NCBI GenBank assembly: GCA_903927005.1
Contig: CAIYLH010000083.1
Location: 1 to 64,000 of the forward strand
Reading direction: 5' to 3'
Origin: an uncultured Pseudomonadota bacterium
Lineage (GTDB): Bacteria > Pseudomonadota > Gammaproteobacteria > Steroidobacterales > Steroidobacteraceae
Length of the DNA stretch: 64,000 nucleotides
Position 1 is the first letter of the stretch, and every line of letters starts with the position of its first letter. The translations under genes and the position numbers were made by a program. The notes under the pieces were generated by a model. It was given only the letters and a program-made list of their open reading frames with translations, had not been told where the DNA came from and searched no databases. Shown in pieces: positions 3,009 through 19,961 of the stretch.

Positions 3009-3014
3009 GCCGGC

Positions 3015-3044: not shown

Positions 3045-3122
3045 CAGAAATGCCCGACCGCACCCTGAACGAGTCATTAAGACTCGCTCAGCGCGCTCGT
3101 TCATGAGGAACCTTAGGAATCA

Positions 3123-3242: not shown

Positions 3243-3297
3243 ACGAATTCGAGCTGAGGTCGCGCTGCGCACGCACCGCCCATGATGCCCCGACCAA

Positions 3298-3346: not shown

Positions 3347-3633
3347 TGAAGGCCGACTTGATAATGCAGGAACGAATCGTCCTGACGGCCGCCAGCTTTG
3401 CTGACATTGTTGTTTGGAAACTAGCCGCTTCGCTGCCCGGTAGCCGACATCGGTTCAAGTATCGTCTCGCCTACATTGTCGAGAATTCCTGTGTCGTGCG
3501 CTTTGACAACGAAACTGGCAAGGGGGACCACAAGCACGTCGGCGCGAAGGAAGTGCCCTACGCTTTCATCGATTTGCAGACATTACGGGCCGACTTCTTC
3601 ACGGAGATCCGCGCCAGGAGCAGGAACAGATGA
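3346..3633 (+). CDS. tumE: TumE-family toxin
   Basis: A 95-residue protein of the TumE toxin family, recognised from the segment HRFKYRLAYIV, the conserved RFDNETGKGDHKH stretch and the C-terminal YAFIDLQTLRADFF. Members of this family pair with a small HTH antitoxin encoded immediately downstream. The biochemical activity is not readable from sequence. The gene overlaps tumA by ATGA. It appears full length, the only intact toxin in the three tRNA-bounded units. Base composition is visibly lower in G+C than the core genes. A decayed relative lies at 132-209. Confidence 0.82.
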   Translation: MKADLIMQERIVLTAASFADIVVWKLAASLPGSRHRFKYRLAYIVENSCVVRFDNETGKGDHKHVGAKEVPYAFIDLQTLRADFFTEIRARSRNR

Positions 3634-3971
3634 AAACCGTCACGATTGGCGTCAGCTCACTCGAGGACGCGGAACAGCGCTTGGCCGATGCGTTCAAGGG
3701 GAAAAGGCGCAGCGCCAGAATTTCCTTCGCATCCGAAGATCTTCTTTGGAAAGTGCTGACTTCCAAGCGCTGGGCCCTGCTTCGGGTAATGGCAGGACAG
3801 GGCACGCTCGGCATCCGTGAGATCGCGCGGCGACTCGGCCGTGACGCGCGCGCCGTGCATAGCGACGTCCACCTGCTGCTGAAGGCCGGACTGCTGAATC
3901 GCGCAGAGGATCGCGGTGTGGTGTTTCCGTACGACGAAATCCACGTGGATTTCGTGCTCAAGGCGGCGTGA
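3630..3971 (+). CDS. tumA: TumA-family winged-HTH antitoxin
   Basis: A 113-residue protein with a MarR/HVO_A0114-like winged helix-turn-helix in its second half. ALLRVMAGQGTLGIREIARR forms the first helices, DARAVHSDVHLLLKAGLL the recognition helix and wing, and FPYDEIHVDFVL the last strand. It should neutralise TumE and repress the promoter at 3298-3346. The start overlaps the tumE stop (ATGA). The stop codon is only 12 bp from tRNA-Lys fragment 3, so the cassette is compact. A broken paralogue is at 204-470. Confidence 0.85.
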   Translation: MKTVTIGVSSLEDAEQRLADAFKGKRRSARISFASEDLLWKVLTSKRWALLRVMAGQGTLGIREIARRLGRDARAVHSDVHLLLKAGLLNRAEDRGVVFPYDEIHVDFVLKAA

Positions 3972-3983
3972 AACACGTCGGAA

Positions 3984-4032
3984 AATTGGTGGCCGTGTAG
4001 GGATCGAACCTCTGACCAATTGATTAAGAGTC
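3984..4032 (-). repeat. att-like tRNA-Lys 3'-half copy 3
   Basis: A 49-bp copy of tRNA-Lys 4891-4940. It has the same single-base deletion as copy 1 in the acceptor region and two changes in the T-stem region. Unlike copies 1 and 2, it is not followed by the shared T-rich arm, so the element that entered here may have been of another type. Confidence 0.85.
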
Positions 4033-4177
4033 AGGACGCAAAATTTCAGCAAGTCATCGTTTGTATTGACTGTTCCGGACTAAATGGTGAATATTTTGTG
4101 GACTTTCAGGCACATAGCGCCCTGTTTTGGTAGGAGTTTCCGGGCTCTTATTCACCAGCCATTTCAGCCGCGCAGCG

Positions 4178-4206
4178 TCGCCGCAGGCTCTGCCCCCCTG
4201 CGGCGA
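4178..4206. repeat. Perfect 10-bp inverted repeat
   Basis: The arms 4178-4187 (TCGCCGCAGG) and 4197-4206 are exact reverse complements around a 9-base loop. It lies in the roughly 240-bp stretch between att copy 3 and the toxin remnant, where I find no gene. There is no T-run on either side, so a simple intrinsic terminator is doubtful. A REP-like palindrome is another possibility. Confidence 0.45.
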
Positions 4207-4273
4207 TCGGACCCTCATTTGGAGCCGCACACATCGGGGCTGGCGCCATGAAAATTTTCGCGCCTGCTAATGA

Positions 4274-4471
4274 ATCGCGACACGAAAGCTCGGGCAACTC
4301 GACGCTGCGAATACGCTTGAGTTCTTACGCTCGCCGCCAGGCAACCGACTGGAGGCACTAAAGGGCGCACGTAAAGGACAGTTCAGCATCCGGATCAATG
4401 ACCAGTTCCGCCTTTGCTTTCGCTGGACGGATGAGGGACCGACGGACGTTGAAGTCGTGGACTATCACTAA
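4274..4471 (+). pseudogene. 5'-truncated HigB/RelE-type toxin
   Basis: From 4274 the frame encodes the C-terminal two thirds of a HigB toxin: [34 protein letters not shown] and the terminal VVDYH, ending at TAA 4469-4471. The usual N-terminal 30 residues are missing. An in-frame TGA (4271-4273) precedes the remnant and there is no start codon for more than 50 codons, so it cannot be made. The conserved distance to higA (11 bp) shows it was the partner of that antitoxin. Confidence 0.8.
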
Positions 4472-4482
4472 GGGTAGCGAAG

Positions 4483-4782
4483 ATGTTTAAGAACGGGATG
4501 AGACCTATTCACCCTGGCGAGGTGCTTCGAGAGGATTTTCTCAAGCCACTCGGCATGAGCGCCAACGCGCTGGCGAAGGCGCTCAGCGTACCCGCCCCCA
4601 GGATCAACGAAGTCATTCGCGAGCGACGCGGCGTTTCTGCCGATACGGCCATGCGGTTGGCTCGATATTTCGGCGGCGATGCGCGCTCGTGGCTGAATCT
4701 TCAGACTGCCTACGACCTGCGTGTCGCGGAAATCAGCAACGCCAAGCGCATTGCTCGTGAGGTTTCGCCTGTGGCTGCCTAG
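4483..4782 (+). CDS. higA: HigA-family antitoxin
   Basis: A 99-residue protein starting MFKNGMRPIHPGEVLREDF, the standard HigA N-terminus. An Xre-type HTH follows (SANALAKAL, then PRINEVIRERRGVSADTAMRLARYF). HigA binds HigB and represses the operon. An AGGG ribosome-binding site precedes the ATG. The toxin upstream is truncated, so this antitoxin is an orphan. It could still cross-neutralise related toxins or act as a repressor. A palindrome at 4804-4820 lies just downstream, without a clear T-run. Confidence 0.9.
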   Translation: MFKNGMRPIHPGEVLREDFLKPLGMSANALAKALSVPAPRINEVIRERRGVSADTAMRLARYFGGDARSWLNLQTAYDLRVAEISNAKRIAREVSPVAA

Positions 4783-4890
4783 CCGAGGAAGTCAGCCCGA
4801 CGCGCCGAGTTCAACTCGGCTAAAAACATCACGGGCAGGCCTGCTGAGGATCGTCGTGAGTGCGAATCCGATAAGGCGCTGGCGTTTGGA

Positions 4891-4969
<79 letters not shown>

Positions 4970-5112
4970 AATCTCTACATTCTAACCTGCGATGCGCCGC
5001 GGTTCTACACCTAACGACTCATCACTCTCCAGATTCGTGTCACCAGAGCGACACTCACCACTGCGTCTTCGCAGTCTGGCGATCGGCGCGAACGCTTATC
5101 GCAAGGAAGGGA

Positions 5113-5189
5113 TGGGGTGGACGATGGGACTCGAACCCACGACGGCCGGAATCACAATCCGGGGCTCTACCAGCTGAGCTACGCCCACC
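5113..5189 (-). tRNA. tRNA-His (anticodon GTG)
   Basis: The stem CCGGA, loop TTGTGAT and stem TCCGG give anticodon GTG. The 5' end carries the extra G at position -1, which is diagnostic for tRNA-His, pairing with the discriminator C. CCA is encoded at 5115-5113. It is third in the Pro-Arg-His-Lys operon. Confidence 0.95.
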
Positions 5190-5254
5190 ACCGAAAAAAC
5201 TTCTCACCGACATCAACTCAACTTCAACTCGACTTCGCACCCACCGCCATCGGT

Positions 5255-5331
5255 TGGCGCGCCCGACAGGATTCGAACCTGCGACCACCGACTTAGAAGG
5301 TCGGTGCTCTATCCAACTGAGCTACGGGCGC
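5255..5331 (-). tRNA. tRNA-Arg (anticodon TCT)
   Basis: The acceptor stem GCGCCCG/CGGGCGC is followed by discriminator G and encoded CCA (5257-5255). The anticodon loop CTTCTAA gives TCT, reading AGA. It is second in the tRNA operon. Confidence 0.95.
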
Positions 5332-5403
5332 TCGTGCTCCCGACTCGAGTTACCTACCGGCCCCGTGCAATACCAAGGCCCTTATACGCCTTCCAGAAAT
5401 CAA

Positions 5404-5480
<77 letters not shown>

Positions 5481-5505
5481 CCGGTCCGTATCACACGGGC
5501 GCGCA

Positions 5506-5534
5506 ATATTACGGGCACCCCCCTCCCCCGTCAA
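5506..5534 (-). promoter_or_regulatory. Promoter of the Pro-Arg-His-Lys tRNA operon
   Basis: On the minus strand, TTGACG (5529-5534) and TAATAT (5506-5511) are separated by exactly 17 bp. A GC-rich discriminator follows, as is typical of stringently controlled stable-RNA promoters. The first tRNA begins 25 bp downstream of the -10. Confidence 0.65.
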
Positions 5535-5614
5535 ACCCAGTCTGATTCCCGAGCTTGGAATCGCATGCGATAATGGTGAGTTGACTGCACAAATACAGCT
5601 CTGGGGGACCGCGA

Positions 5615-6481
5615 GTGACCGCAACACTTATTGATGGCAAGGCGATTTCCAAGGCCCTGAAGGCCGATGTCCGCGTCGCCACCGACGCGCTGGTCGCCCG
5701 CGGCGGCCGCCGGCCGGGACTTGCGGTCGTGCTGGTGGGCAGCGACCCGGCCTCCGGCATCTACGTCAAGAACAAGCGCATCGCCTGCGAAGAAACCGGC
5801 ATCCACTCGGTGTCCCACGACCTGCCGGCGAGCACCTCCGAGGCGGACCTGCTCAGCCTGATCGACAGCCTGAACGCGGACCCTGCGATCGACGGCATCC
5901 TGGTACAGGCGCCGCTGCCCAAGCACATCTCGGACCACGCGGTGATCGAGCGCATCGATCCGTCCAAGGACGTCGACGGCTTTCACCCCTACAACGTCGG
6001 CCGACTCGCCATCCGCCAGCCGCTGATGCGCCCGTGCACGCCGTATGGCGTGATGATCATGCTGCAGAAGATGGGCCTGGAAGTGCGCGGCAAGGACGCG
6101 GTCGTGGTCGGCCAGTCGAACATCGTCGGCCGGCCGATGGCGCTGGAGCTGCTGATGGCGCAGGCCACCATCACCGTCTGCCACAGCAAGACGCGTGATC
6201 TCAAGGGCGAGGTGGGCCGCGCCGAGGTGCTGGTGGTCGGCACCGGCAAGCCGAACATGATCCCGGGCGAGTGGATTCGTGAAGGCGCGATCGTGATCGA
6301 CGTTGGCATCAACCGCATGCCGGACGGCAAGATCTGCGGCGATGTGCACTTCGCCAGCGCCGTCGAGCGCGCCGGCTACATCACGCCGGTGCCGGGCGGC
6401 GTCGGCCCGATGACCATCGCGGCGCTGATGCAGAACACGCTCGAGAGCGCGCTGGCGCGGCAGGGACTCAAGGGCGCCTGA
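5615..6481 (+). CDS. folD: Bifunctional methylenetetrahydrofolate dehydrogenase/cyclohydrolase
   Basis: 288 residues, normal FolD length. The protein converts 5,10-methylene-THF to 10-formyl-THF with NADP+ in the cytoplasm. Conserved segments include [14 protein letters not shown] (catalytic Lys near residue 54), PLPKHI, the [14 protein letters not shown] signature, [12 protein letters not shown] in the Rossmann domain and [13 protein letters not shown] near the C-terminus. The start is GTG 5615, preceded by a GGGGGA ribosome-binding site. It diverges from the tRNA operon. A GATAAT hexamer at 5569-5574 could be its -10. Confidence 0.96.
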
Positions 6482-6492
6482 CGGCGCCCTTG
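6469..6492. terminator. Hairpin between convergent folD and cysS
   Basis: A perfect 10-bp inverted repeat (6469-6478 and 6483-6492) with a TGAC loop that contains the folD stop codon. It lies between two convergent genes and could stop transcription from both sides. There is no U-rich tract. Confidence 0.45.
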
Positions 6493-6505
6493 CCCGGCGC
6501 TATTC

Positions 6506-7921
6506 CTAGCGGTAGCGCCAACTTGTGCCCTGCGGCCCGTCCTCCAGGACGATGCCGCGGGCCAGGAGCTCATCCCGGACGCGGTCCGATTCCTTGAAGT
6601 CCTTGTTGCGACGCGCCGCGGTGCGCGCCGCAACCAGCGCCTCGATCTCGGCGGCAACGGGCTCCGCTTCTGTCGACTCACCCTCCTCGCCCGGCATCCG
6701 CTCGGGACGGGTCTGCAGCCAGAGCTCCGGGTCTAGCCCCAGCACGCCCACGACCTCGGCAAGCGCCTTCAGCTCAGCGGCGAGCAGCGCGGCCTTCGCG
6801 GTATCGCCTACGCTCTTGGCGACATTGAGGTCGCGCGCCAGCGCCTGCAGCGCGGCGAGCGCCTCGGGCGTATTGAAGTCGTCGTCCATCGCCGCCTTGA
6901 ACTTCTCGGTCGCCGCGCCGTGCACGACGCTCTCGGCCGGCGTTACGCCACGCAGCGCGACGTACAGCCGCTCCAGCGCCGCATCCGCCTGACGCAGGTT
7001 GTCGTCGGAGTAATTGATCGGGCCACGGTAGTGACTGGAGAGCACGAACGCGCGCATCACTTCCGGTCGCAGGTGCGGCAGCACCTCACGCACGGTGAAG
7101 AAGTTGCCGAGCGACTTCGACATCTTCTCGGCGTTGACGTTGACGAAGCCGTTATGCATCCAGGTGGTCACGAACGGCGTCCCACAGGCCGCGCAGGTCT
7201 GCGCGATCTCGTTCTCGTGGTGCGGAAACTTCAGGTCCATGCCGCCGCCATGGATGTCGAAATGCCCGCCCAGCAGCGCCACCGACATCGCCGAGCACTC
7301 GATATGCCAGCCCGGACGTCCCGCGCCCCACGGCGACTCCCAGGCCGGCTCGCCGGGCTTGGCCATCTTCCACAGCACGAAGTCGAGCGGATCGCGCTTG
7401 CCCTCGTTGACCTCGACGCGGGAACCGGCGCGCAGGTCCGCGAGACGCTTGCCGGACAGCCGACCGTAGCCTTCGAACTTCGCCACCGCGTACAGCACGT
7501 CGCCGTCGGCGCCCACATAGGCGTAATCCTTGGCGACCAGCTGCTCGATCATCGCGATGATCTGCGGCACGTACTGGGTCGCCCGCGGCTCGTGCTCGGG
7601 ACGCTCCACGCCCAGCGCCGCGCAGTCTTCGTGCATCGCAGCGATGAACCGCTCGGTGAGAGCCGCCATCGACTCGCCGTTCTCGGCAGCGCGGGCGATG
7701 ATCTTGTCATCGATGTCGGTGATGTTGCGCACGTGCGTGACGCGGTAGCCACGGTGGCGCAGGTAACGACGCACGACGTCAAACACGATCAGCGAGCGCG
7801 CATGGCCGACATGGCAGAAGTCGTACACGGTCATGCCGCAGACATACATCCGCACATGGCCGGGCTCGAGGGTCTGCAGCGGCTCCTTGCGGCCGGTCAG
7901 CGAGTTGTGAATTTCAATCAT
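6506..7921 (-). CDS. cysS: Cysteinyl-tRNA synthetase
   Basis: About 471 residues, close to the usual 460. It is a class I synthetase charging tRNA-Cys. Zinc ligands start with the Cys in YVCGMTVYD. The HIGH-type motif is HVGHARS, the Cys/His pair near WHIECS is present, and the KMSKS loop is EKMSKSLG. Two ATGs lie at 7928-7930 and 7919-7921. I prefer the second because the AAGGA ribosome-binding site is about 10 bases from it and only 1 base from the first. It lies 20 bp downstream of gltX and is probably cotranscribed with it. Confidence 0.95.
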
Positions 7922-7941
7922 CGAGGTCATTTCCTTCGGGT

Positions 7942-9345
7942 CTACAGACTGCCGGCGGGGAGCCGGCGCGCGGCCTCGAGCCGCGCGGTCAACAGGGATC
8001 GTGACATCACCGCCATCAGGCGGGCGAGCTCGGGGCCATCGAGGCGACCGGTCAGTGCCGCGCGCAGCGGCTTGAACAGAGCCGCGCCGGACTTGCCGGC
8101 CGCCTTCAGCGCCGCAACCAGATTGGCGTAATCGGCGCCGGCCGCGACCGCAGCGAGTGCCGCGTCCCAAAATGGCGTGCCGGCAGCGGCCAGCAGCGCA
8201 GCCAGCTCCGGCACGGGGCACGGCAGCTCGCCGTAAACGACCGGCGCCCACTCGGCGACGTCCGCCGGCAGTAGCAGGTTCGCGCGCAGCGCGGCGACGA
8301 AGTCCGCTTCCCGGCCCGGCGGCACACGCCCCGTAGCCCAGGCCTCGAGCACACTGGCCGGGGCGTGCTGCACGGCCTCCTTCTGCCAGTGGCGCAGCTG
8401 CGCCTCATCGAAGTGCGCCGGTGCCCGGCCTAAGGCCCCCAGATCGAACCCTGCCACGAGCGCGGCGGGCTCGAGCCAGCCATCCTCGCCATAGCGGTGG
8501 CCGAGCCGCGCGAGCAGGTTCAGTACCGCGCCAGGCAGGTAACCGGCCTCGGCAAGGCTCGCAAGGCTCGCCGCCCCGTCGCGCTTGGACAGCGGCGCGC
8601 CGGCCGCACCCACCAGCAGCGGCAGGTGGCCGTAAGCGGGCGGCGTGCCGCCCAGGGCCTGGATCAAGAGCATCTGGCGCGGCGTGTTGGCGACATGGTC
8701 CTCGCCGCGCAGCACGTGACTGACCTGCATCAGCCCATCGTCGACCGCGTTGGAGAACAGGAAAGCGGCACTGCCATCGGCGCGGCGGATCACGAAGTCG
8801 CCGAGGTCGCCGCCCTCGAAGCGCTGCGGCCCGCGCACCAGGTCGGTGTACTCGATCGGCCCTGGCGTGACCCGAAAGCGAAGCGAGGGGCTGCGCCCCT
8901 CGGCCAGTCTTGCGGCCCGTCCGGCGCCATCCAGGGCCGCGCAAGGACCTGAATAGCGTGGCGGCCGGCCGGCCTGCAATGCGGCCTTGCGGGCAAACTC
9001 CAGCTCCAGCGAACTGCAGTAACACGGGTAGGCCTGGCCGCCCGCCTCCAGGCGCGCGTAGGCCGCCGCGTAGACCGCACCGCGCTCGGACTGGCGATAG
9101 GGGCCTGCCAGGTCATCCCGGCCGGGGCCGGCGTCCCACTCCAGCCCCAGCCAGCGCAGGGCCGCGACCAGCGACTGCTCGTGGGCGGGATCGGAGCGCG
9201 CCCGATCGGTGTCCTCGATGCGCAGCACGAACCGCCCGCCGTGGCGGCGCGCGTACAGCCAGTTGAACAGGGCCGTCCGGACGTTGCCCAGGTGCAGGGC
9301 GCCCGTCGGGCTGGGGGCGAAGCGAGTGATAACGGGTACAGACAT
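7942..9345 (-). CDS. gltX: Glutamyl-tRNA synthetase
   Basis: 467 residues, a class I synthetase. The start [20 protein letters not shown] contains the HIGH-type motif (HLGN), and the KMSKS-type motif is [11 protein letters not shown]...C cluster around YPCYCSS resembles the zinc knuckle of GluRS. The frame stays open a further 16 codons upstream, but the family N-terminus begins at ATG 9343-9345. It sits between cysS and the cyclophilin gene. Whether it also mischarges tRNA-Gln cannot be judged here. Confidence 0.94.
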
Positions 9346-9355
9346 GGGGCCGAAG

Positions 9356-9361
9356 TATAAT
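9356..9361 (+). promoter_or_regulatory. Consensus -10 element upstream of the cyclophilin gene
   Basis: A perfect TATAAT lies 31 bp before the cyclophilin start in the 47-bp gap to the divergent gltX. No good -35 is visible at 16-18 bp, so an activator or extended contacts may be needed. Confidence 0.4.
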
Positions 9362-9392
9362 GCGCTCCCCCTCCACCCCTGCCGGGAATCCA

Positions 9393-10019
9393 ATGCCGAA
9401 CCACGCCCCTGCCCGCCGCCTTCGCCTCGCCCTCCTCGGATCGCTGGTCGCGCTACTCGGACTCGCCCCCCTCGCCCGCGCCGACGACGGCTCGCCCAGC
9501 CAGGTACGGATCGAGACCAACCTCGGCAGCTTCACCATCGAGCTTGCGCTGGCACGCGCGCCGCTGACCTGCGCCGCCTTCATCAACAACGTCCGCGCCG
9601 GCTACTACACCGGCACCGTGTTCCATCGGGTGATCTCGAACTTCGTCGTGCAGGCCGGCGGCTACGACGACAAGTTCCAGAGCAAGACTCCGAGCGCGAC
9701 CGTCTCCAACGAATCCGGCAACGGCCTGTCGAACAAGCGTGGCACGGTCGGGCTCGCGCGCGGCGATTCGCCGCACTCCGGCAACGCGCAGTTCTACGTC
9801 AACCTGACCGACAACGACGACCTCGACCCGACGCCGCTGCGCTGGGGCTACACGGTGTTCGGCAAGATCATCGAGGGCATGGACGTAGTCGAGAAGATCG
9901 GCCACTCGCCGACCGGCTCGATGGGTCCTTGGACGCGCGACGCGCCGCTGGACATGATCGTGATCCAGAAGGCGGAGATCGTCGGCGCCGCCGCGACCGC
10001 GCCGGCCACGGCGCACTGA
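9393..10019 (+). CDS. Periplasmic cyclophilin-type peptidyl-prolyl isomerase
   Basis: 208 residues starting at MPNHAPARRLRL, with a signal peptide whose hydrophobic core LALLGSLVALLGLAPL ends near ARA-DD. The mature part is a bacterial cyclophilin: FHRVISNFVVQAGG, a QFYVNLTDN segment, and GYTVFGKIIEGMDVV. It accelerates proline isomerisation of exported proteins. A start 11 codons earlier is in frame but would place charged residues before a normal signal sequence. The next gene, lpxH, begins 5 bp downstream, the same pairing as ppiB-lpxH of enterics. Confidence 0.92.
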   Translation: MPNHAPARRLRLALLGSLVALLGLAPLARADDGSPSQVRIETNLGSFTIELALARAPLTCAAFINNVRAGYYTGTVFHRVISNFVVQAGGYDDKFQSKTPSATVSNESGNGLSNKRGTVGLARGDSPHSGNAQFYVNLTDNDDLDPTPLRWGYTVFGKIIEGMDVVEKIGHSPTGSMGPWTRDAPLDMIVIQKAEIVGAAATAPATAH

Positions 10020-10024
10020 GCCAC

Positions 10025-10747
10025 GTGACCGCGCTCGTCGTCTCTGACCTGCACATCGACGCGGCATGGCCCGAGATCGGCGAACAGTTCATCGCCTTCC
10101 TCGAAGGTGAAGCCCGCGGCGCCGAGGCGTTGTACGTGTTGGGCGACCTGTTCGAGGCGTGGATCGGCGACGACGACGACAACCCGCACCGACGCGGGGT
10201 CGTCGCTGCGCTGCGCAGATTGAGCGCGTCCGGCGTCGAGCTGTATTTCCAGCACGGCAACCGCGACTTCCTCTACGGGTCGCGCTTCGAGTGCGATACT
10301 GGCGGCCTGCTGCTCGCGGACCCCGTCATCGTCAGCCGCCACGGCAAACGCGCGCTGTTCGCGCACGGCGATGCGCTGTGCACGGACGATGTGCCGTACC
10401 AGCGACTGCGGGCACTGGTGCGCGATCCCCCCTGGCAGCGCGCATTCCTCGGCCTCGGCCGCGCGACACGACAGCTGCTGGCAGACGAAGCGCGCAGCGG
10501 CAGTCGCGCGCACACCGCCCAGCAGCAGACGATGCTGATGGACGTGAACCCGGCAACCGTCGAGGCGCTGCTGCGCGCCGCCGGCGTCGATACGCTCGTT
10601 CACGGCCACACGCATCGTCCGGGCGTACATGCGCTGTCAATCGATGGACGGGCCTGCACGCGCATCGTCACCGGCGACTGGTACACGCAAGGCAGCGTGC
10701 TGTGCTGGGACAATGCGGGCCTGCGGCTGGAGACGCGGCCGCGCTGA
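10025..10747 (+). CDS. lpxH: UDP-2,3-diacylglucosamine pyrophosphohydrolase
   Basis: 240 residues, a metallophosphoesterase of the lipid A pathway that cleaves UDP-2,3-diacylglucosamine to lipid X and UMP at the inner membrane. Metal ligands are visible: D8 and H10 (SDLHI), D41 (GDLFEAWIGDD), N79 (GNRD), H114 (HGD), and H193/H195 (HGHTH). The start is GTG 10025, just after the cyclophilin stop, with no strong ribosome-binding site, so translational coupling is likely. Confidence 0.94.
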   Translation: MTALVVSDLHIDAAWPEIGEQFIAFLEGEARGAEALYVLGDLFEAWIGDDDDNPHRRGVVAALRRLSASGVELYFQHGNRDFLYGSRFECDTGGLLLADPVIVSRHGKRALFAHGDALCTDDVPYQRLRALVRDPPWQRAFLGLGRATRQLLADEARSGSRAHTAQQQTMLMDVNPATVEALLRAAGVDTLVHGHTHRPGVHALSIDGRACTRIVTGDWYTQGSVLCWDNAGLRLETRPR

Positions 10748-10751
10748 GACT

Positions 10752-11357
10752 TCAGGCCGGTGGGCCGGAATGAAAGCGGAACAAAGGGTCAGGACGGGTA
10801 GCAAGATCCGCCTCAACCGTCGCCAGCGCCGCAAGCCGCACGGCGTAGTCGAGCCCCGATGCTTCCGCATGGCGACGGGCAAGATCACTGTAGAGACTGC
10901 GATGGCGCGCCTCGGCCGCCTCGAGGCCCGCGTAGAACCGAGCGATGTCCTCAGGCAGCAGCGGAATGAGGCCGGCGAACCGCTCCGAAGAGCGCGCCTC
11001 GATCAACTGCCCGGCGATCAGCAGATCCAGCCGGCGGACCGGCTCGTGGGCTGTGACCGCACGGCGCAGTTCGCCGGCATAGCGCCCCGGCGGCAGGCGC
11101 GCGTAGCGCACCTCGCGCTTCGCCATCAGCCCCAGCACCTGTTCGTAATGGCGCAGCTCCTCGCGCGCGAGCCGCGCGAGGCTCAGTCCCAGCGCCGTGT
11201 CATCGGCATACTGGAACATCAGCCCCAGTGCCGTGGACGCGGCCTTCTTCTCGCAGTTGGCGTGATCGACCAGCAGTACCTCGAGCGACTGCAGCGCCGC
11301 CTCGTACCAGCCAGGCGGCGTCGCGGCCAGCAGCCCTGTCTGGAGCGGCCCGCTCAC
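10752..11357 (-). CDS. miaE: tRNA-(ms2io6A)-hydroxylase, MiaE type
   Basis: 201 residues, a ferritin-like di-iron oxygenase that hydroxylates the isopentenyl group of ms2i6A37 in tRNA. The E and ExxH ligands fit WYEAALQSLEVLLVDHANCEKKA, EELRHYEQV and EARSSERF...EARHRSLY. The start is GTG 11355-11357, which overlaps the upstream kinase stop as GTGA. The frame is open further upstream only because it overlaps the kinase gene. It is the last gene of the minus-strand purF block. Confidence 0.9.
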   Translation of the reverse strand: MSGPLQTGLLAATPPGWYEAALQSLEVLLVDHANCEKKAASTALGLMFQYADDTALGLSLARLAREELRHYEQVLGLMAKREVRYARLPPGRYAGELRRAVTAHEPVRRLDLLIAGQLIEARSSERFAGLIPLLPEDIARFYAGLEAAEARHRSLYSDLARRHAEASGLDYAVRLAALATVEADLATRPDPLFRFHSGPPA

Positions 11358-12631
11358 CCGCCCTCCGTCACCGGCATCGCGCCCGGCGGCACCAGCGGCG
11401 GTGGTGGCGGCAGCGCGTCGATCGCCTCGCACAGCTGCTCAGCTGACTGGTAGCGATCGCGCGCCTCCTTCGCCAGCATCCGCTCGAGCAAGCCCTGCCA
11501 GTGCGCGTACTGTGCCGGCAGCAGCGGGATCGGCGTATGACTGTGCTTGTAGATGACCGCCATCGGCGTCGCGGCGAGGAACGGCTTCTTGCCGGTCAGC
11601 ATCTCGTAGAAGATCACGCCGAGGCTGTACAGGTCGCTGCGCTCATCCGCCTCCCGGCCGTGACCCTGCTCGGGGCTCATGTAGTACGGCGTGCCGAAGA
11701 TCTCGCCGGTCGCGGTGATCTCAGCCTCCAGCGACAACTGCTTGGCCAGCCCGAAGTCGATCAGCGCGATCGTGCCATCGGCCCGCAGCATCACGTTGCC
11801 GGGCTTGAGGTCGCGGTGCAGAACGCCCGCAGCGTGGATCGCGGCGAGCGCGCCGGCCATCTGCCGCAGCATGTCCAACGCATCCAGCGGAGTGATGCCG
11901 CGGCGCATGCGGCTGCGCAGGTCGCCGGCGGCGAAATACTCCATCTGGATAAAGGCGTGATCGTCGGCGACCCCGAGCTCGTAGATGCGCACGACATTGG
12001 GATGATCGATCTGCCGGATGATCTCGTATTCCTGCAAGAAGCGATCGAAGGTGCCGGGTTTGTCGGTCAGGTCGGGGATCTGGCGCAGCAGCTTGAGCAC
12101 CACCAGACGCGCCTCGCGCTCGCTCTCGGCCAGATAGACGGTCGACATCGTGCTGTTGGCGAGCGCACGGATGCAGCGCAAGCCCTTGATCGCGGTCTGG
12201 CCGAAGCGGTAGGCCTTCGCCGCCGCCGCACTGGCGCGGAAGGAGGCCAGCGTGCGTCGCTGCAGGCTGGCGGCGTCTTTCACCAGCCCGACGAACTGAC
12301 GGTGGCCGATCTTCGCCTTCGCGATGCAGCCGTAGGCACCAGCGGCGAGCGCCGCGGCGGCTGCCGTATCGTCGCGCTCCGGCAGCAGAAAGATCACCGG
12401 CGGGAACAGCGGACGGGCGCGCGCGTCGGTAAGCCAGCCAAGGCCGTCCTCGTCCGCGGGCCGCGCATCGAGCAGCACCGCATCGTAGCCGGCCGCATGA
12501 AACTCGGCCGGCAGCCGGCCCAGCTGCCGCGGCTCGTGCTCGACGACGACGACATCGCCCAGACCCGTGACCAGGTGCTGCCTGATCAGCCGGCGATAGT
12601 CCGGGTCGTCCTCGATCAACAGCACGCGCAT
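11354..12631 (-). CDS. Receiver domain-Ser/Thr protein kinase fusion
   Basis: 425 residues with two domains. Residues 1-120 form a CheY-like receiver, with acidic pocket E7-D8-D9 and phospho-acceptor D55 in AVLLDARP. Residues 150-405 form a Hanks-type kinase, with VVLKLL (K180), HRDLKPGN (272-279), DFGLAK (292-297) and a TPYYMSPEQ activation segment. The glycine-rich loop is poor: ALANSTMSTVYLA lacks the usual glycines. A Pro-rich tail ends the protein. A sensor histidine kinase would be expected to phosphorylate the receiver, but none is nearby. It lies between a glycerate kinase and miaE in a tight operon. Confidence 0.88.
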   Translation of the reverse strand: MRVLLIEDDPDYRRLIRQHLVTGLGDVVVVEHEPRQLGRLPAEFHAAGYDAVLLDARPADEDGLGWLTDARARPLFPPVIFLLPERDDTAAAAALAAGAYGCIAKAKIGHRQFVGLVKDAASLQRRTLASFRASAAAAKAYRFGQTAIKGLRCIRALANSTMSTVYLAESEREARLVVLKLLRQIPDLTDKPGTFDRFLQEYEIIRQIDHPNVVRIYELGVADDHAFIQMEYFAAGDLRSRMRRGITPLDALDMLRQMAGALAAIHAAGVLHRDLKPGNVMLRADGTIALIDFGLAKQLSLEAEITATGEIFGTPYYMSPEQGHGREADERSDLYSLGVIFYEMLTGKKPFLAATPMAVIYKHSHTPIPLLPAQYAHWQGLLERMLAKEARDRYQSAEQLCEAIDALPPPPPLVPPGAMPVTEGG

Positions 12632-12633
12632 TG

Positions 12634-13917
12634 TCAGGCCTCCTTGCCTTGCACCGGAGCGTCACCCGGCTCGTCATCGTCGGGCGGCAGCGGCGCCCGG
12701 CGCAGACCGAGCATCAGGTCACCGACGTTGGTGCCGGTAGGACCGGTATACAGCAGATCGCCGGCCGCCTCGAGGAACGGACCGGCATTGGCCTGCGCCA
12801 GCGCGGCCTCCGGATCCAGCCCTGCGGCGCGACCGCGCGCGAGCGTACCGCCATCAACGATGGCGCCGGCGTCGGCAGAGTTGCCATCGCTGCCGTCGGT
12901 GCCGGCGGCGAGGATCAGCAGGTCGTTGTGGCCGGCAAGCAGTCGTGCGGCGGCCAGCGCGAACTGCTGGTTGCGACCGCCCCGGCCGGGCGTCGGTGGC
13001 AGACACACGGTGGTTTCGCCGCCCCACAGCAGCACGTCCTCGGTGCCGAGGGCGAGCTCGTGCGCGAACCGGTTCGCGCACGACTCCACCTCGCCGTCCG
13101 CACGCGATGCGAGCCTGCGGCACAGCAGCCCCTGCTGATCCGCGGCCAGCGCCACCGCCACGAAGGCGTCCTCGAGCCGCGCGACGATGCGCGCCGGCAT
13201 GCTTGCGCCCGCGGGCAGTCCGCGCTCGGCCAGGACCAGCTCGCGCACCCACTCCGGCAGGTCTGCCGGCAGCTTCTCGGCGGGAGCTGCGGCGACCAGC
13301 CCCGAGCCGATCACCGCCGGATCATCACCGGGCACATCGGAGATCAGCAGCGCCTCGGCGCGGTGAAACTCAAGCAGACGCGCGAGCCTGCCGCCCTTGA
13401 GCCGCGACACGCGTCGGCGCAGACCGTTCAGGGCCGTGATCGGCAGACCCGAGCCCAAGCCCCATTCGTTCAGCCGGGCAAGCTCGGTCGCGGTGACTCC
13501 CGCCGCCAGGGATTCCACCAGGCTCGAGGCGCCGCCGGAGACGAGCACCAGCACGCGGCTGCCGGCCGGTGTCGCGGCAATGAACGCCTCCAGTGCCGCG
13601 CCCGCGGCGAGACTGGCCGCCCCCGGCACCGGATGGTCGCCCTCCAGGCACACCAGTGCCGGCCAATGGCCGAGCTCCGCCTCGAGGTGTCCGGCACGGC
13701 TGATGACCAGACCACGCTGAATGCTGCGACCGTGCAGGTCGCAGGCGCCAAGCGCCATGCTGCCGGCCGCCTTGCCGATCGCGATCAGCGCCAGCGGCTC
13801 GTCCGCTACCGGCCCCGCCAGCGCGCGCGCGACCGCACTGCGCCCCTCGACTGCGGCGGACGCCACGGCATAGAGCTTGAGCAGCGCAGCTCGGCGCCGG
13901 TCCGCGCCGACTCCCAT
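12634..13917 (-). CDS. Glycerate 2-kinase, GckA/TtuD (MOFRL) family
   Basis: About 427 residues with an N-terminal DUF4147-type domain (LIAIGKAAGSMA; VLVLVSGGASSL; NEWGLGSGLPITALNGLRR) and a C-terminal MOFRL domain (LLWGGETTV; GRGGRNQQFALA; GTDGSDG). Family members phosphorylate D-glycerate to 2-phosphoglycerate. The ATG at 13915-13917 is chosen because the family sequence begins there. A GTG 12 bases upstream is also possible. It lies 22 bp after purF and 2 bp before the kinase fusion. Confidence 0.88.
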   Translation of the reverse strand: MGVGADRRRAALLKLYAVASAAVEGRSAVARALAGPVADEPLALIAIGKAAGSMALGACDLHGRSIQRGLVISRAGHLEAELGHWPALVCLEGDHPVPGAASLAAGAALEAFIAATPAGSRVLVLVSGGASSLVESLAAGVTATELARLNEWGLGSGLPITALNGLRRRVSRLKGGRLARLLEFHRAEALLISDVPGDDPAVIGSGLVAAAPAEKLPADLPEWVRELVLAERGLPAGASMPARIVARLEDAFVAVALAADQQGLLCRRLASRADGEVESCANRFAHELALGTEDVLLWGGETTVCLPPTPGRGGRNQQFALAAARLLAGHNDLLILAAGTDGSDGNSADAGAIVDGGTLARGRAAGLDPEAALAQANAGPFLEAAGDLLYTGPTGTNVGDLMLGLRRAPLPPDDDEPGDAPVQGKEA

Positions 13918-13939
13918 GGGATCACGCACGGCAGTCGGG

Positions 13940-15469
13940 TCAGACGACCCGGACCGCCCGCGGCTTCGATGCGGGCGCCGGCGGTATTTCAGCGGCATCA
14001 CGACGCCGCGCCTTCGCCGCATCCGAACGCTCGCGCTCGAGGGCCGCCAGATACTCCGGGGTCACATCGCCGGTGACGTATTCGCCCGAGAAGCAGGACG
14101 TGTCAAACGACTCGACCCGCGCCTTGTCGTGCCTCACCGCCGTGACCAGATCCTCGAGATCCTGATAGATGAGCCAGTCCGCACCGATCAGCTGCGCCAC
14201 CTCTTCGTCGGTGCGGCCGTTGGCGACCAGCTCGCCGACCGCTGCCATGTCAATGCCGTAGACATTGGGGTAGCGCACCGGCGGCGCCGCCGAGGCGAAG
14301 TAGACCTTGCGCGCACCGGCCTCGCGGGCGAGGTCGATGATCTGCGCCGACGTCGTGCCGCGCACGATCGAGTCGTCGACCAGCAGTACGTTGCGGCCGC
14401 GGAACTCGAGCGGAATCGCGTTCAGCTTCGAACGCACCGACTTCTGGCGTTCTTCCTGACCCGGCATGATGAACGTGCGGCCGATGTAGCGATTCTTGAC
14501 GAAGCCCTCGCGATACTCGAGGTTCAGGTCGAGCGCGAGCTGCATCGCACTGGTGCGACTGGTGTCGGGAATCGGGATCACGACGTCGATGTCATGGTCC
14601 GGCCGCAGCCGCTTGATCTTCTCCGCCAGCTTCTCGCCCATGCGCATGCGCGCCTTGTGGACCGAGATGTTGTCGATGATCGAATCGGGGCGCGCGAAGT
14701 AGACGTACTCAAACACGCACGGGGTGTGCGCGGTCACCTCTGCACAGCGGGCGCTGTGCAGGCCACCGGAGACGTCGATGTAGACCGCCTCGCCCGGCTC
14801 TACGTCGCGCACGAGGTCAAAGCCGACCAGGTCCAGCGATACCGACTCGGAGGCCAGCATCCACTCGGTGCCGCGCGGCGTGATGCGCCGACCGAGCACC
14901 AGCGGGCGGATGCCGTTCGGGTCGCGGAAGCCCACCACGCCGTGGCCGATGATCAGCGCCACGACAGCGTAACCGCCGCGCACGCGACGATAGACATTCG
15001 CCAGCGCAGCGAACAGCTCATCAGGCTTCAGGTGCGCGGCGCCCTTGCGCTGCAGCTCGCTCGCCAGAATGTTGAGCAGCGCCTCGGAGTCGGAGCTGGT
15101 GTTCAGGTGGCGACGCTCGTCGCGCCACAGCGCCTCGGCGAGCTCCGCGGCGTTGGTCAGGTTGCCGTTATGCGACAGCCCGATGCCGTAGGGGGCATTG
15201 ACGTAGAACGGCTGCGCCTCGGCGACGCCGTCGCAGCCAGCGGTCGGGTAGCGCACGTGGCCGATACCGATGTTGCCCTTCAGCTGCAGCATGTGCCGCT
15301 GCTGGAACACGTCCCGCACGAGGCCGGATTCCTTGCGCAGGAACAGCTCCTCGCCGTCGCACGTCATGATGCCAGCGGCATCCTGGCCGCGGTGCTGCAG
15401 CACGGTGAGCGCGTCGTAGATGCGCTGATTGACGGGCGACTGCCCGACGATGCCGACGATGCCGCACAT
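13940..15469 (-). CDS. purF: Amidophosphoribosyltransferase
   Basis: 509 residues. It catalyses the first committed step of purine synthesis, PRPP plus glutamine to phosphoribosylamine. After Met removal, Cys1 of CGIVGIVG is the glutaminase nucleophile. The PRPP loop is [24 protein letters not shown] and SHNGNL are also diagnostic. A GGAG ribosome-binding site precedes ATG 15467-15469. It follows cvpA by 4 bp, the ancestral cvpA-purF arrangement. Confidence 0.96.
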
Positions 15470-15473
15470 GCTC

Positions 15474-15980
15474 CTACTCCCCGTCGGTGGCGAGTGCGCG
15501 GCGCGCAAGCGCCTTGGACTCGCCCGCAAAGCGTTCCAGCCAGCTGGCCACATGCAGGGTATAGGGCGCGAAGTGCGCACCGGTCCACCACGGCTCGTGC
15601 TGCAGGTTCATCGTCACCCCGAGCATTGCGCCGAAGCCGACCAACACCACACCGCGCGTGACGCCGAAAAAGAAGCCGAACAGACGGTCAACTACGCCAA
15701 GGCCAGCGGCGGTGTGCGACAGCCACGCCAGCAAGTGGCCCGCGATGGCACCGAGCAGCAGTACGCCGATCAGCACGATGCCGCGCGCAAGCCACGCCTT
15801 CTGCACCGCACTGAGCATGCCGCCCAGGTACGGCTGGAGAAAACCGGAGAAGTGCCAGGCGATCCAGATCGCGAGCAGCCAGGTGATCAGCGCGACCACC
15901 TCGCGGATGAAGCCACGTACGGCGCCGAGGATGGCGGAAGCGCCAATCACGGCGAAGATGATGTAGTCCGCGCCTTGCAT
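15474..15980 (-). CDS. cvpA: CvpA family membrane protein
   Basis: About 168 residues with four to five hydrophobic segments. The N-terminus [23 protein letters not shown] is typical of CvpA, an inner-membrane protein first linked to colicin V production and purine metabolism. I start at ATG 15978-15980 because CvpA proteins begin close to the DYxI motif. A GTG four codons upstream (15992) is the alternative. Confidence 0.9.
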
Positions 15981-16087
15981 CCGGGTTGCCACTAGAGGCG
16001 GCTGCGGGTGTGCAGCCTGAGCCCGTGATTTTATCTGAAACGCCCCGCGCTCACACGACGCCGTCCGGGACGGCGCGGATGGGCGTG

Positions 16088-16975
16088 TCAGCGCGGCGCG
16101 ACCGAGCCTTTATGGCCGTCACGCGCCAGCCGCGCGGCGATCGCGTCGGCGCGCGCTCGGTCCTGCTCGGGCCCGACTCGCACGCGAAACAGCACGCGGC
16201 CGCTGCCGCGGTACTCGCTGACGAAGGCCCGGTAGCCCTTGGCGCGCAGCTGGGTGGCGAGCTTTTCGCCGTTCTCGCGGCTGGCGAAACTGCCCAGCTG
16301 CACCACCCAGGCCTCGCCACTGCCGCCGTGCGCAGCGGACTTGGCCGCTGCCGGCTTGGCGGCGGCAACGGCGGGAAGCTCGGTGGGCGCGGTGGCGGGA
16401 CGCGGCGGGGTCACCGCCGCCACCGCCGCCGTAGAGGTCGGCTGGCTGGCCGGCGGGCCGGCCGGGCTGGTGCCCTTCGGGGCGACAGGCGGCGCCTGCA
16501 CTGCCTTCGCGGCCGCGCCAGCCGGGGCGGTGGCGGCAGGGGGCTTGGCCGCCGGCGTCGTGACGAGGGGCGGCGGGCTGGAGGGCGGCGGGGACGCCAT
16601 CGGTGGGCTCTTGGACGCCGCTGCCAGCGGCGCCGATGCCACGGCGACTGAGGGCGCCGGGGCAGCCGGCGTCGGGTCAACCACCGGCGCCGTCGGCGGC
16701 GGGTTCATCACCGCAGCAGCGGCCACTGGTGGGGCGACCCGCACGGCGGGCGCATCGGCCGGCGCTCCGTTTGGAGCATCGGCAGCCGGACGGGCAACCA
16801 GCGCGGGGCTGGAGGCGGTCAGGTCGACAACGACGGTACGCACGGGATTGGGAACATCGGAGGCCGGCGAGGGTGCCAGCCGCTTCGGGCCGGTCAGCAG
16901 CTCTGGCACGACCAGCACGACGATCAGGACCAGGGCGGCCGCGCCGACCAGTCGTTCTTTGAGGCGGGTGTCCAT
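16088..16975 (-). CDS. dedD: DedD-like SPOR-domain cell-division protein
   Basis: 295 residues. A short cytoplasmic N-terminus (MDTRLKERLVG) leads into one membrane helix at about residues 9-28. A long Pro/Ala-rich periplasmic linker covers about 35-210. A C-terminal SPOR domain follows (WVVQLGSFASRENGEKLA; VRVGPEQDRARADAIAARL), which binds denuded septal peptidoglycan. The gene context folC-dedD-cvpA supports DedD. ATG 16973-16975 is used because the membrane helix follows at the usual distance. Confidence 0.9.
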   Translation of the reverse strand: MDTRLKERLVGAAALVLIVVLVVPELLTGPKRLAPSPASDVPNPVRTVVVDLTASSPALVARPAADAPNGAPADAPAVRVAPPVAAAAVMNPPPTAPVVDPTPAAPAPSVAVASAPLAAASKSPPMASPPPSSPPPLVTTPAAKPPAATAPAGAAAKAVQAPPVAPKGTSPAGPPASQPTSTAAVAAVTPPRPATAPTELPAVAAAKPAAAKSAAHGGSGEAWVVQLGSFASRENGEKLATQLRAKGYRAFVSEYRGSGRVLFRVRVGPEQDRARADAIAARLARDGHKGSVAPR

Positions 16976-16983
16976 AAGATCGC

Positions 16984-18270
16984 TCAGACGGGAGGCGAGG
17001 CGGAGTATAGACGATGCCATTCCAGTGCCGGCGCGGCGGTGTGGAACGACCCAAAGACAACCACCCGATCCCCCGGCTCCGCCGCATGCGCCGCGAACGC
17101 ACAACCCGCTTCGACCGACATCGCGGTCGTCAGGGAGCGGCCCAGCAGCGGCTCCCATAGCGCGGCGAGCGACTCGGCCTGACGGCCGCGCTCACCTGCG
17201 AGCGTCACCGCGCAGACCACATCGCGCGCGCCGAGGGCACGCGCCAGCTCCCGGCCGACAGCGACCGCGTCCTTGTCGCCCAGCAGCCCCGCGACGACCA
17301 GCGTGCGGCCGCTGCCGCGCCGCTCGATCATGGTATCCGCCAGCACGGCCGCACTGCCGGGGTTGTGGGCCACGTCGAACACCCATTCAACCACTCCCGG
17401 CACCACCTGATAGCGCGCCGGCAACGACACGCCGGCCAGCCCCCGCGCAACCACCGCAGACCCTGGCAGCAGCCCAGCCGCGTCGAGGGCGGCGAGCGCG
17501 GTTGCAGCGTTCGCATACTGGGCGCTGCCGGCCAACGCCGGCGCCGGCAGCCCCGACAGGCGCGTCACGCCGCGCACAAAGGCAAAGCCAGCGGCTTGGA
17601 CCTCGACCTGGAAATCCGTGCCAAAACGCTCGAGGCGCGCGCCGATGCGCGCGGCCTCCGTCGCAATCGACGCCGGCATCGCCAGACTGCCGTAGATGGC
17701 CGGCCGGCCGGCCCGGAAGATGCCCGCCTTCTCACGGCCAATGGCCTCAAGCGTATCGCCCAGGTACTCGGTGTGGTCGAGGCTGATCGAGACCACGACG
17801 CCGACGTCGGCATCGATCGCATTGACCGCGTCGAGTCGCCCGCCGAGCCCGACCTCCAGAATCACAAGCTCCACGCCTGACTGCGCGAATGCCATCAGCG
17901 CGGCCAGCGTGCCGTACTCGAAATACGTCAGCGTCGTGGCGCCGCGCGCCGCCTCTATACGCTCGAACACCGCCACCAGCGTGGCAGGGTCGATCTCGGC
18001 GCCGTTGATGCGAATGCGCTCGGTGTAGCGAAGCAGATGTGGCGAGGTGTAGAGGCCGACCTTGAGGCCGGCGGCACGGGCCACTGACTCGAGCGTCGCG
18101 GTCACCGAGCCCTTGCCGTTGGTGCCGCCGACGGTAATGACCTTTGCAGCGGGCCTGCCCAGACCCAGAGCGGCCAGCAGCGTGTGCATGCGATCGAGCG
18201 TGAAGTCCATCGCGTGCGGATGCACGCGCTGCTGGTACTCCAGCCAGTCATCAAGCGTCCGCCCGGCCAC
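16984..18270 (-). CDS. folC: Folylpolyglutamate/dihydrofolate synthase
   Basis: 428 residues of the Mur ligase superfamily. The P-loop is GGTNGKGSV (residues 48-56), with YTSPHL, the VGLGGRLDAVN and SLDHTEYLG motifs, and FDVAHNPGS. It adds glutamate to dihydropteroate and folates. The GTG start at 18268-18270 lies 2 bp from the accD stop, so it is coupled to accD. Confidence 0.95.
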   Translation of the reverse strand: MAGRTLDDWLEYQQRVHPHAMDFTLDRMHTLLAALGLGRPAAKVITVGGTNGKGSVTATLESVARAAGLKVGLYTSPHLLRYTERIRINGAEIDPATLVAVFERIEAARGATTLTYFEYGTLAALMAFAQSGVELVILEVGLGGRLDAVNAIDADVGVVVSISLDHTEYLGDTLEAIGREKAGIFRAGRPAIYGSLAMPASIATEAARIGARLERFGTDFQVEVQAAGFAFVRGVTRLSGLPAPALAGSAQYANAATALAALDAAGLLPGSAVVARGLAGVSLPARYQVVPGVVEWVFDVAHNPGSAAVLADTMIERRGSGRTLVVAGLLGDKDAVAVGRELARALGARDVVCAVTLAGERGRQAESLAALWEPLLGRSLTTAMSVEAGCAFAAHAAEPGDRVVVFGSFHTAAPALEWHRLYSASPPV

Positions 18271-18272
18271 GC

Positions 18273-19136
18273 TCAGACCGCCTGCGGCGGCGCTTGCATC
18301 AGGAGGCGCAGGAGGTTGGCGATCCGTTCACGGTGATCGCGGCGGTCAAGAATCATGTCGATCGCGCCATGCTCGAGCAGGAACTCGCTGCGCTGGAAGC
18401 CTTCCGGCAGCGTCTCGCGGACGGTCTGCTGGATCACGCGCGGACCGGCGAACCCGATCAACGCGCGCGGCTCACCAATGTTCACGTCCCCGAGCATCGC
18501 CAGGCTCGCCGACACGCCGCCCGTGGTCGGGTCGGTCAGCACCGACACGAACGGCAGCCGGTCCTTGGCCAGGCGCCCTAGCGCCGCACTGGTCTTGGCC
18601 ATCTGCATCAGCGAGTAGAGGCCTTCCTGCATGCGCGCGCCGCCGCTCGCCGAAAAGCACACCAGCGGCATCCTGAAGGTGCGGCAATGTTCGACCGCGC
18701 GCACGAACTTCTCGCCGACGACCGAACCCATCGAACCGGCCATGAACTTGAACTCGAACGCGACGGCAACGATCTCCAGGCCCGTCAGGGTGCCGGCCAT
18801 GACCGTCAGCGCATCGCGCTCGCCGGTGTCCTTTTGGGCAGCGGCGACACGATCGCGGTAACGCTTGGAGTCCTTGAACCGCAGCGGGTCCTCGGACTGC
18901 ATGGCGGCGGCAAGCTCACTCGCCGAACCCGGGTCGAGGAAGCGCTTGAGCCGCTCACGGCCGTCGATACGCATGTGGTGCGAGCACTTCGGGCAGACAT
19001 TGAGGTTGCGCTCGAGCTCGGCGCGGTAGAGCACCGAATCGCAAGCCTCACACTTGATCCACAGCCCCTCAGGGACCGAACGCGTGCGGCGCTCGGTCTT
19101 GATCCGCGAGGGCATGATCTTCTCGAACCAGGTCAT
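18273..19136 (-). CDS. accD: Acetyl-CoA carboxylase carboxyltransferase subunit beta
   Basis: 287 residues starting [13 protein letters not shown] four-cysteine zinc ribbon (CEAC...CPKC, residues 27-49) is followed by the crotonase-fold carboxyltransferase domain with [12 protein letters not shown] and [10 protein letters not shown]. It pairs with AccA to make malonyl-CoA. The ATG overlaps the truA stop as ATGA. Confidence 0.96.
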
Positions 19137-19948
19137 CCGGGAGCTTCCAGGGACTGCGAGGCGCCGATGATAGCGGAAAGCCCGGCCGGCGCCTCGGCTG
19201 GGATGCCCGCGGCCTCCGGGTAGCGGACCTTGGCGAAGTACAACCCCCCGGCCGGGGCGGTAATGCCGGCGACAGCCCGGTCGCGGCCGGCGAGCACCTC
19301 TGCGATCCAGCCCACCGCTCGGGCGCCCTCGCCGACCGCGAGCGCTGAGCCTGCAATGTTGCGAACCATGTGATGCAAGAAGGCGTTGGCGGTCACCGAC
19401 AGCACCAGGAAGTCGCCGTGGCGCTCCACGCCGATCCGCTCCAGCCGCCGAACCGGGCTCTTCGACTGACACTCGGAGGCGCGGAACGCGGAATAGTCGT
19501 GCTGACCGACCAACGGCTGCAACGCCGCGTGCATGCGCGCCGCGTCCAGCGGCGAACGCCACAGACAGACCCGGTTGCTCAACAGTGGCGCGCGGGTCGG
19601 CGCATTCAAGATCACGTAGCGATAAGTGCGCGCCAGCGCCGAATAGCGCGCACTGAAATCCGCCGCGACCGGCACGATCCAGCGCAGCGCGACATCCTGC
19701 GGCAGGTTGGTGTTGGCACCGAACAGCCAGCCGCGCAACGGCCGCACGGCGTCAGTCTCAAAATGGATGACCTGGCCGAGCGCATGCACGCCGGTGTCTG
19801 TGCGCCCGGCGCAGACGACCTTGACGGGATGATCGGCAACGAAGCCGAGCGCGCGCTCAACCTCCGCCTGCACCGACGGAGCCGAGTTCTGCCGCTGCCA
19901 GCCCGCGTAGGCGGTGCCGGCGTACTCGATGCCTGCTGCGAACCGCAC
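19133..19948 (-). CDS. truA: tRNA pseudouridine(38-40) synthase
   Basis: 271 residues. The catalytic Asp is in [10 protein letters not shown] (residues 47-56), and RTYRYVI and HHMVRNIAG complete the family signature. It modifies the anticodon arm of many tRNAs. The start is GTG 19946-19948, 13 bp after fimV. In many relatives trpF (and trpBA) lie between truA and accD; here the two genes overlap directly. Confidence 0.95.
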
Positions 19949-19961
19949 GCGCTGCGTGCGC

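Follow-up and report, generated by a model that had tools for sequence, protein, structure and literature searches.

The receiver-Ser/Thr kinase (REC-STK) fusion encoded in the purF operon of this Steroidobacteraceae bacterium is best explained as an active kinase that is controlled without the classic phospho-switch, its receiver having become a pseudo-receiver, a reading to which we assign a probability of about 0.57 from sequence comparison. Among relatives the kinase half is nearly always kept, whereas the residues with which the receiver handles phosphate have been lost repeatedly, so that this switch has probably ceased to control the kinase.

The gene lies within the window, the whole 64,000-nucleotide stretch of DNA that was analysed. 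Pfam recognises both halves of its product, Response_reg at residues 3–106 (37.0 bits, E 4.3e-9) and Pkinase at residues 161–401 (157.4 bits, E 5.8e-46), and these E-values, together with the orthologues described below, rule out a chance or misread frame. The fusion of a receiver with a Hanks kinase, its exact boundaries and its placement in a purF-glycerate kinase-miaE block, all proposed in a sequence-only reading of the window, are thus borne out (Table 1). The stop of the glycerate kinase gene lies two bases ahead of the REC-STK ATG, and the REC-STK stop shares four bases (GTGA) with the likely GTG start of miaE. This overlap makes co-translation of REC-STK and miaE probable, and the short spacing, the AAGGAGG motif and the overlap together suggest that REC-STK is co-expressed with purF, glycerate kinase and miaE.

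Table 1 Features of the REC-STK gene, its product and its neighbours (positions in the window).
Feature	Position	Strand	Basis and remarks
REC-STK gene	11354..12631	−	ATG at 12631, stop TGA 11356–11354, 425 aa; ORF coordinates exact
purF	13940..15469	−	TIGR01134, 511 bits
Glycerate 2-kinase ORF (DUF4147/MOFRL)	12634..14022	−	Pfam; exact start uncertain
AAGGAGG, likely REC-STK ribosome-binding site	12639..12645	−	Sequence; within the end of the glycerate kinase gene
miaE	10752..11357	−	Pfam MiaE; likely start GTG
Receiver domain, residues 1–118	12278..12631	−	Pfam Response_reg; pseudo-receiver, Thr/Ser position is Leu83
Asp55, acceptor position (LLDARP), kept	12467..12469	−	Alignment
Leu83 at conserved Thr/Ser position	12383..12385	−	Alignment
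Cys102 at K-3 aromatic switch position	12326..12328	−	Alignment rows
Lys105, conserved receiver Lys, kept	12317..12319	−	Alignment
Linker, residues 119–150	12182..12277	−	AlphaFold secondary structure; holds end of extended alpha5
Ser/Thr kinase domain, residues 151–405	11417..12181	−	Pfam Pkinase; Foldseek best PknB, PknA
Nucleotide loop A158-N-S-T-M-S163	12143..12160	−	AxSxxS replaces GxGxxG; alignment
Lys180 (VAIK lysine)	12092..12094	−	K in 67/67 linked rows
HRD 272–274, catalytic loop	11810..11818	−	67/67 linked rows
DFG 292–294	11750..11758	−	DFG 66, DYG 1 (67 linked rows)
Thr306, activation loop	11714..11716	−	T 65, S 2 (67 linked rows)

An AlphaFold model of the protein (mean pLDDT 88.3), whose input combined 19 related sequences, seven of them kinase-only rows, with the window protein, shows helix alpha5 spanning residues 110–132 and directed at the kinase. 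The pLDDT falls below 50 in the activation-loop stretch 296–312; confidence is also low for residues 181–200 and for the C-terminal tail. The window genome encodes five kinases above the Pfam cut-off and three PP2C proteins, none of the latter at the REC-STK locus. A second Ser/Thr kinase ORF of the window (50929–52290, minus strand, 454 aa from stop to stop) has a loop with glycines (VGRGSTGNVYLS).

A search of 60 relatives returned near-full-length proteins ranging from 86% identity within the genus down to about 42% within the order, the named relatives including metagenome genomes of Steroidobacteraceae, Woeseiaceae and Chromatiales, and many of the sequences come from metagenome-assembled genomes. 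A profile match (E 1e-100) occurs in 222 of the 296 genomes of the order; this number is a ceiling for orthologues, since it counts one kinase-only gene (genome G002, see below) and may include paralogues. Gene order is conserved as accD-folC-SPOR-cvpA-purF-(glycerate kinase)-REC/STK, with miaE and the oppositely directed lpxH and ppi genes usually coming next. With glycerate kinase sometimes in between, purF lies upstream of REC-STK at 50 of 51 distinct loci, the exception, L138, being cut by a contig end, and this common placement rules out a fusion unique to the window locus. When the tree was built from the kinase part only and without the nucleotide loop, one branch (SH-aLRT 99) separated the 53 purF-linked rows from the others; in an enlarged tree of 93 rows this linked/unlinked branch has an SH-aLRT of 77. 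Many inner branches are weakly supported. On this comparison of sequences and gene order, the window gene belongs as the local orthologue to a REC-STK clade that spans the order and resides in the purF operon, and it has been inherited at that site. This order-wide conservation of the architecture had escaped the sequence-only reading, as had the two receiver substitutions described next.

The counts below refer to these linked rows, enlarged by 15 of 20 added regions; the other five (L308, L309 (frame broken), L312, L313 and L314) do not contain a full REC-STK. One locus (L148) was dropped as a duplicate of L044, L150 was taken off the receiver counts, having no residue at the Asp55 column, and L235, the receiverless copy of G002, was left out of the 67 linked rows, while L138 and L307 were counted as linked although purF falls outside the contig. 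Four further linked loci stand outside the tables (L240, which is cut, L244, L245 and L246); all four carry pseudo-receivers, and miaE directly follows the kinase in the three that are not cut.

A working receiver relies on five residues, namely two acidic residues, an Asp, a Thr/Ser and a Lys (PMC12632262, section 3). The window receiver has the acidic pair E7/D8, Lys105 and the intact acceptor Asp55 that the sequence-only reading had pointed out, but position 83 is Leu and the K-3 aromatic switch position is taken by Cys102. Because the Thr/Ser is missing, it is, as judged from the alignment, a pseudo-receiver by the 2025 definition (PMC12632262); it keeps Asp55 and so differs from the aspartate-less receivers (ALR) described there. 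All ten receiver-bearing genus members retain Asp55 and Lys105, and none has T/S at position 83 or an aromatic residue at position 102. Over the linked clade as a whole, Asp55 is preserved in 36 of 66 rows and is elsewhere substituted by Gly, Ala, Val or Ser, with at least ten changes by parsimony on the tree. A complete DD/D/T/K receiver is found in 17/66 linked rows and a pseudo-receiver in 49/66, a proportion that counts kin and is not directly comparable with the ~6% of bacterial receivers reported to be pseudo-receivers (PMC12632262, section 4); among unlinked REC-STK rows, mostly from the wider class, 16 of 25 are complete. Response_reg scores reach 45–68 bits in three relatives that carry the cassette described below, compared with 37.0 in the window protein, and drop to 29.5 bits (below the cut-off) in L315 and to no match in L044. 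Between the window gene and seven relatives, receiver dN/dS is 0.25–0.63, higher than that of the kinase in 7/7 pairs. Since these values stay below 1, the receiver is not a dead domain; by this measure it is less constrained than the kinase, yet under purifying selection.

The kinase half has the VAIK Lys, HRD and DFG listed in the sequence-only reading, and in addition an alphaC Glu (Glu201) and an Asn (Asn279) that are invariant in 67/67 linked rows, L235 excluded. Its fold and catalytic residues resemble those of PknB and PknA (E about 1e-41), and Thr306 aligns with a Thr of both; it differs from them in its N-terminal receiver and in the absence of the first two loop glycines. The glycine-poor loop does read ALANSTMSTVYLA as claimed, with A158, S160 and S163 at the GxGxxG positions. 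A family search of the kind proposed in the sequence-only reading recovers the same domain order across the order, with AxSxxS in 17/67 linked rows, including 10/10 receiver-bearing genus members. Glycine is absent at 158, 160 and 163 together in 25/67 linked rows and present at both 158 and 160 in only 8/67; across 78 aligned rows the first glycine is replaced in 46, the second in 25 and the third in all 78, and PknB likewise has Ser in place of the third. As AxSxxS is fixed in the ten receiver-bearing genus members, we regard it as a lineage variant made up of small residues. Kinase dN/dS between the window gene and the same seven relatives is 0.10–0.30, and by this measure the kinase half is under purifying selection.

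A loop whose three canonical positions all lack glycine, as in those 25 rows, would suit a catalytically dead or scaffold kinase, and the receiverless copy of G002 also lacks the alphaC Glu. We consider this very unlikely for the window protein, given that Lys180, Glu201, HRD and Asn279 are invariant in the linked rows, that DFG and the activation-loop Thr are almost so, that dN/dS is low, that AxSxxS does not vary among the receiver-bearing genus members and that PknB, too, has Ser at the third position. With the other catalytic positions kept and the loop fixed in the genus, AxSxxS is, as far as conservation can tell, no mark of a dead kinase. Similarly improbable is that the gene is on its way out, with selection relaxed on the whole protein in the lineage of the window, even though the losses in relatives and the faster evolution of the receiver agree with this. 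The full-length gene is present in 10/15 genus genomes, that of the window included. It is absent, with purF and miaE adjacent, from G013 and G004 of the same genus and from G026 of the same family; G007 and G012 are uninformative on gene loss, as purF was not found in them (one weak match only in G012). The genus member G002 has, between purF and miaE, a kinase-only ORF with an open frame of 305 aa and no Pfam receiver match. This copy (L235) keeps the Lys, HRD, Asn and DFG; its alphaC Glu is replaced by Ala, its activation-loop Thr is missing, its loop reads SMSAAT and its branch is long. Because of the lost Glu and Thr and the long branch, the G002 kinase may itself be eroding, and we dropped the idea that this in-place loss of a receiver proves an intact kinase to need none. 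Against an ongoing loss in the lineage of the window stand the strong constraint on its kinase and on the full-length genus relatives, the profile match in up to 222/296 genomes of the order, and genome size, which is 4.0 Mb for the window but 2.4–2.8 Mb in the three members of the genus where the gene is lost or eroding.

A working response regulator deserves more weight, although we still hold it to be rather unlikely. Here an unlinked histidine kinase would phosphorylate Asp55, and the signal would pass through alpha1-alpha5 to the kinase without Y-T coupling. The acidic pair of the window protein, the Asp55 and Lys105 shared by the ten genus members and the complete receivers among linked and unlinked relatives all fit such a regulator, and a second allosteric path to alpha1-alpha5 is known (PMC12632262, section 7). 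Yet none of those ten proteins has T/S at 83 or an aromatic at 102, the Asp is lost in other members of the family, and a query with the histidine kinase of the cassette gave no match at E 1e-6 in window positions 2001–22000, in agreement with the sequence-only reading, which had seen no histidine kinase in the block. That reading had also expected the protein to link two-component signalling to Ser/Thr phosphorylation. The expectation suits ten relatives that have complete receivers and the cassette; for the window protein it is doubtful, since Leu83 and Cys102 remove the Y-T coupling residues and Asp55 has changed so often in the clade.

For an active kinase with a pseudo-receiver, we envisage that the kinase acts on its targets after probable autophosphorylation at the conserved activation-loop Thr306, and that the receiver, joined by the extended alpha5 to the N-lobe, would serve in docking, dimerisation or ligand sensing, presumably without switching by classical Asp phosphorylation and Y-T coupling. 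Phosphorylation may still matter, because the ten receiver-bearing genus members have retained Asp55 and Lys105, which would leave room for signalling via another surface. In some relatives the input could come from a Group 1 Rup GTPase/hybrid histidine kinase cassette directly downstream.

This cassette was found at ten REC-STK loci (L132, L136, L151, L154, L156, L304, L305, L306, L307 and L310), which sit outside the family of the window. As far as each of the ten contigs extends, the genes after REC-STK encode, in this order, an OmpR-type regulator, a coiled coil, an OmpA-domain protein, a GTPase of the Ras family and a hybrid histidine kinase, and miaE comes next; the GTPase is in view at 9/10 loci and the hybrid histidine kinase at 8/10, the contig of L310 stopping in the OmpA gene and that of L154 after the GTPase. 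Five genes of L136 and single genes of L151, L132 and L237 were identified with Pfam and the others with tblastn. The available part of a 2014 survey (PMC4316618) describes the Group 1 Rup neighbourhood as rup, a coiled coil, an OmpA-domain protein and a histidine kinase, and on that description the cassette is this neighbourhood plus an OmpR regulator and REC-STK, neither of which is mentioned there as an adjacent gene. According to the same part of the survey, no member of this system type had been characterised experimentally.

The Rup GTPase is present in 10/60 relatives, 35/296 genomes of the order and 20/274 of the class. It gave no match in family f1, to which the window belongs and of which 37 genomes were covered, the window genome included (E 1e-15 for the latter), which places the window genome outside the Group 1 Rup systems. 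In G044 (purF locus L300) the cassette stands between purF and miaE without REC-STK, and in G057 it follows purF without REC-STK over the stretch fetched, so that L237, L238 and L300 of these two genomes represent the complementary arrangement. We considered the regulator next to purF in G044 and G057 as a divergent REC-STK orthologue and rejected this, as it belongs to the Rup cassette, being its OmpR regulator. No REC-STK match was seen at 20 regions around GTPase hits (L284–L303), of which L300 is the purF locus of G044, L287 shows the GTPase alone and some are cut by contig ends.

Complete receivers occur in 10/10 linked rows with the cassette vs 7/56 without it, the latter being L128, L142, L145, L041, L149, L323 and L311; the fetched parts of L240, L244, L245 and L246 show no cassette-type neighbour of REC-STK, and counting these four gives 7/60. 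At L149, an extra ORF of ~456 aa (5661–7028, minus strand) lies between REC-STK and miaE, outside any Rup cassette. Fisher tests of cassette vs receiver gave 1e-4, and 9e-8 after the added loci, both values ignoring kinship and part of the added loci having been chosen because they bear the cassette. Rows with the cassette are closely related, two cassette changes suffice on the tree, and a tree-aware comparison has one pair on supported branches, or two after enlargement, and cannot reach 0.05. Given this kinship, the few changes and pairs and the partly preselected loci, either order of events is possible: the cassette was lost first and the receivers decayed later, or the cassette was gained by some lineages.

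A broader proposal is that the purF-linked REC-STK was, or somewhere still is, the Ser/Thr-kinase output of the Rup GTPase/hybrid histidine kinase, and that without the cassette it repeatedly gave rise to phosphorylation-independent pseudo-receivers and to one deletion, convergent with fungal Rim15. We offer this as a tentative idea with well below even odds. If true, the cassette link would bring GTPase, His-Asp and Ser/Thr signalling together as three currencies of one system. How bacterial pseudo-receivers switch has been called a mystery (PMC12632262, abstract). Here a single syntenic gene provides a natural series, with complete receivers beside the cassette, several independent losses of the active site and one deletion (with an eroding kinase), and the role of a receiver for a Ser/Thr kinase therefore becomes testable.

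The nearest analogue that we found is fungal Rim15, a Greatwall-like kinase. In the available part of PMC8510515, its receiver is described as canonical in some phyla, as having lost the Asp in Ascomycota and as absent from the S. pombe homologues. The Asp is replaced by Glu, Ala or Gly in some lineages, and in yeast, truncating the Rim15 receiver reportedly abolishes function (available parts of PMC8510515; PMC12632262, section 4). As described in these sources, Rim15 thus resembles the present clade in combining a Ser/Thr kinase with a receiver whose Asp is replaced, or which is absent, depending on the lineage, as here in G002. The Rim15 receiver is C-terminal and eukaryotic, whereas the one studied here is N-terminal and belongs to a bacterial purine operon, and we compare the two as analogues. 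The pseudo-receiver of ShkA, according to the available part of PMC7010744, takes part in restraining a histidine kinase and responds to c-di-GMP, which shows that a pseudo-receiver can help to hold a kinase in check and answer a ligand; on the same source, ShkA differs in being a histidine kinase bound by c-di-GMP, whereas the window protein is a Ser/Thr kinase. Response regulators may also act through Ser/Thr kinase domains, as stated in the available part of PMC10767990, and on that description a receiver with a Ser/Thr kinase belongs to a known architecture class. The available parts of PMC2176072 and PMC4395418 contain no REC-Hanks kinase of this kind.

Our search of the open-licence literature found no work on a bacterial REC-Hanks kinase of this kind, on the present clade, on the decay of its receiver or on the Rup cassette link. 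Architectures that combine a receiver with a Ser/Thr kinase are reportedly listed in two Galperin reviews.

Related genes also occur in other settings. At both L228 (2174–8489) and L230 (3256–9443), two facing REC-STK genes flank a histidine kinase match, and all four receivers are complete. Two tandem REC-STK genes lie on one strand at L227 (5507–8329, minus strand), upstream of ORFs that by eye are carAB-like. Related kinases at L233 and L234 have HLD instead of HRD and zero Gly at the three canonical loop positions. In two genomes, unlinked REC-STKs (L220 and L222) lie within a few kb of an ORF resembling pyruvate kinase by eye.
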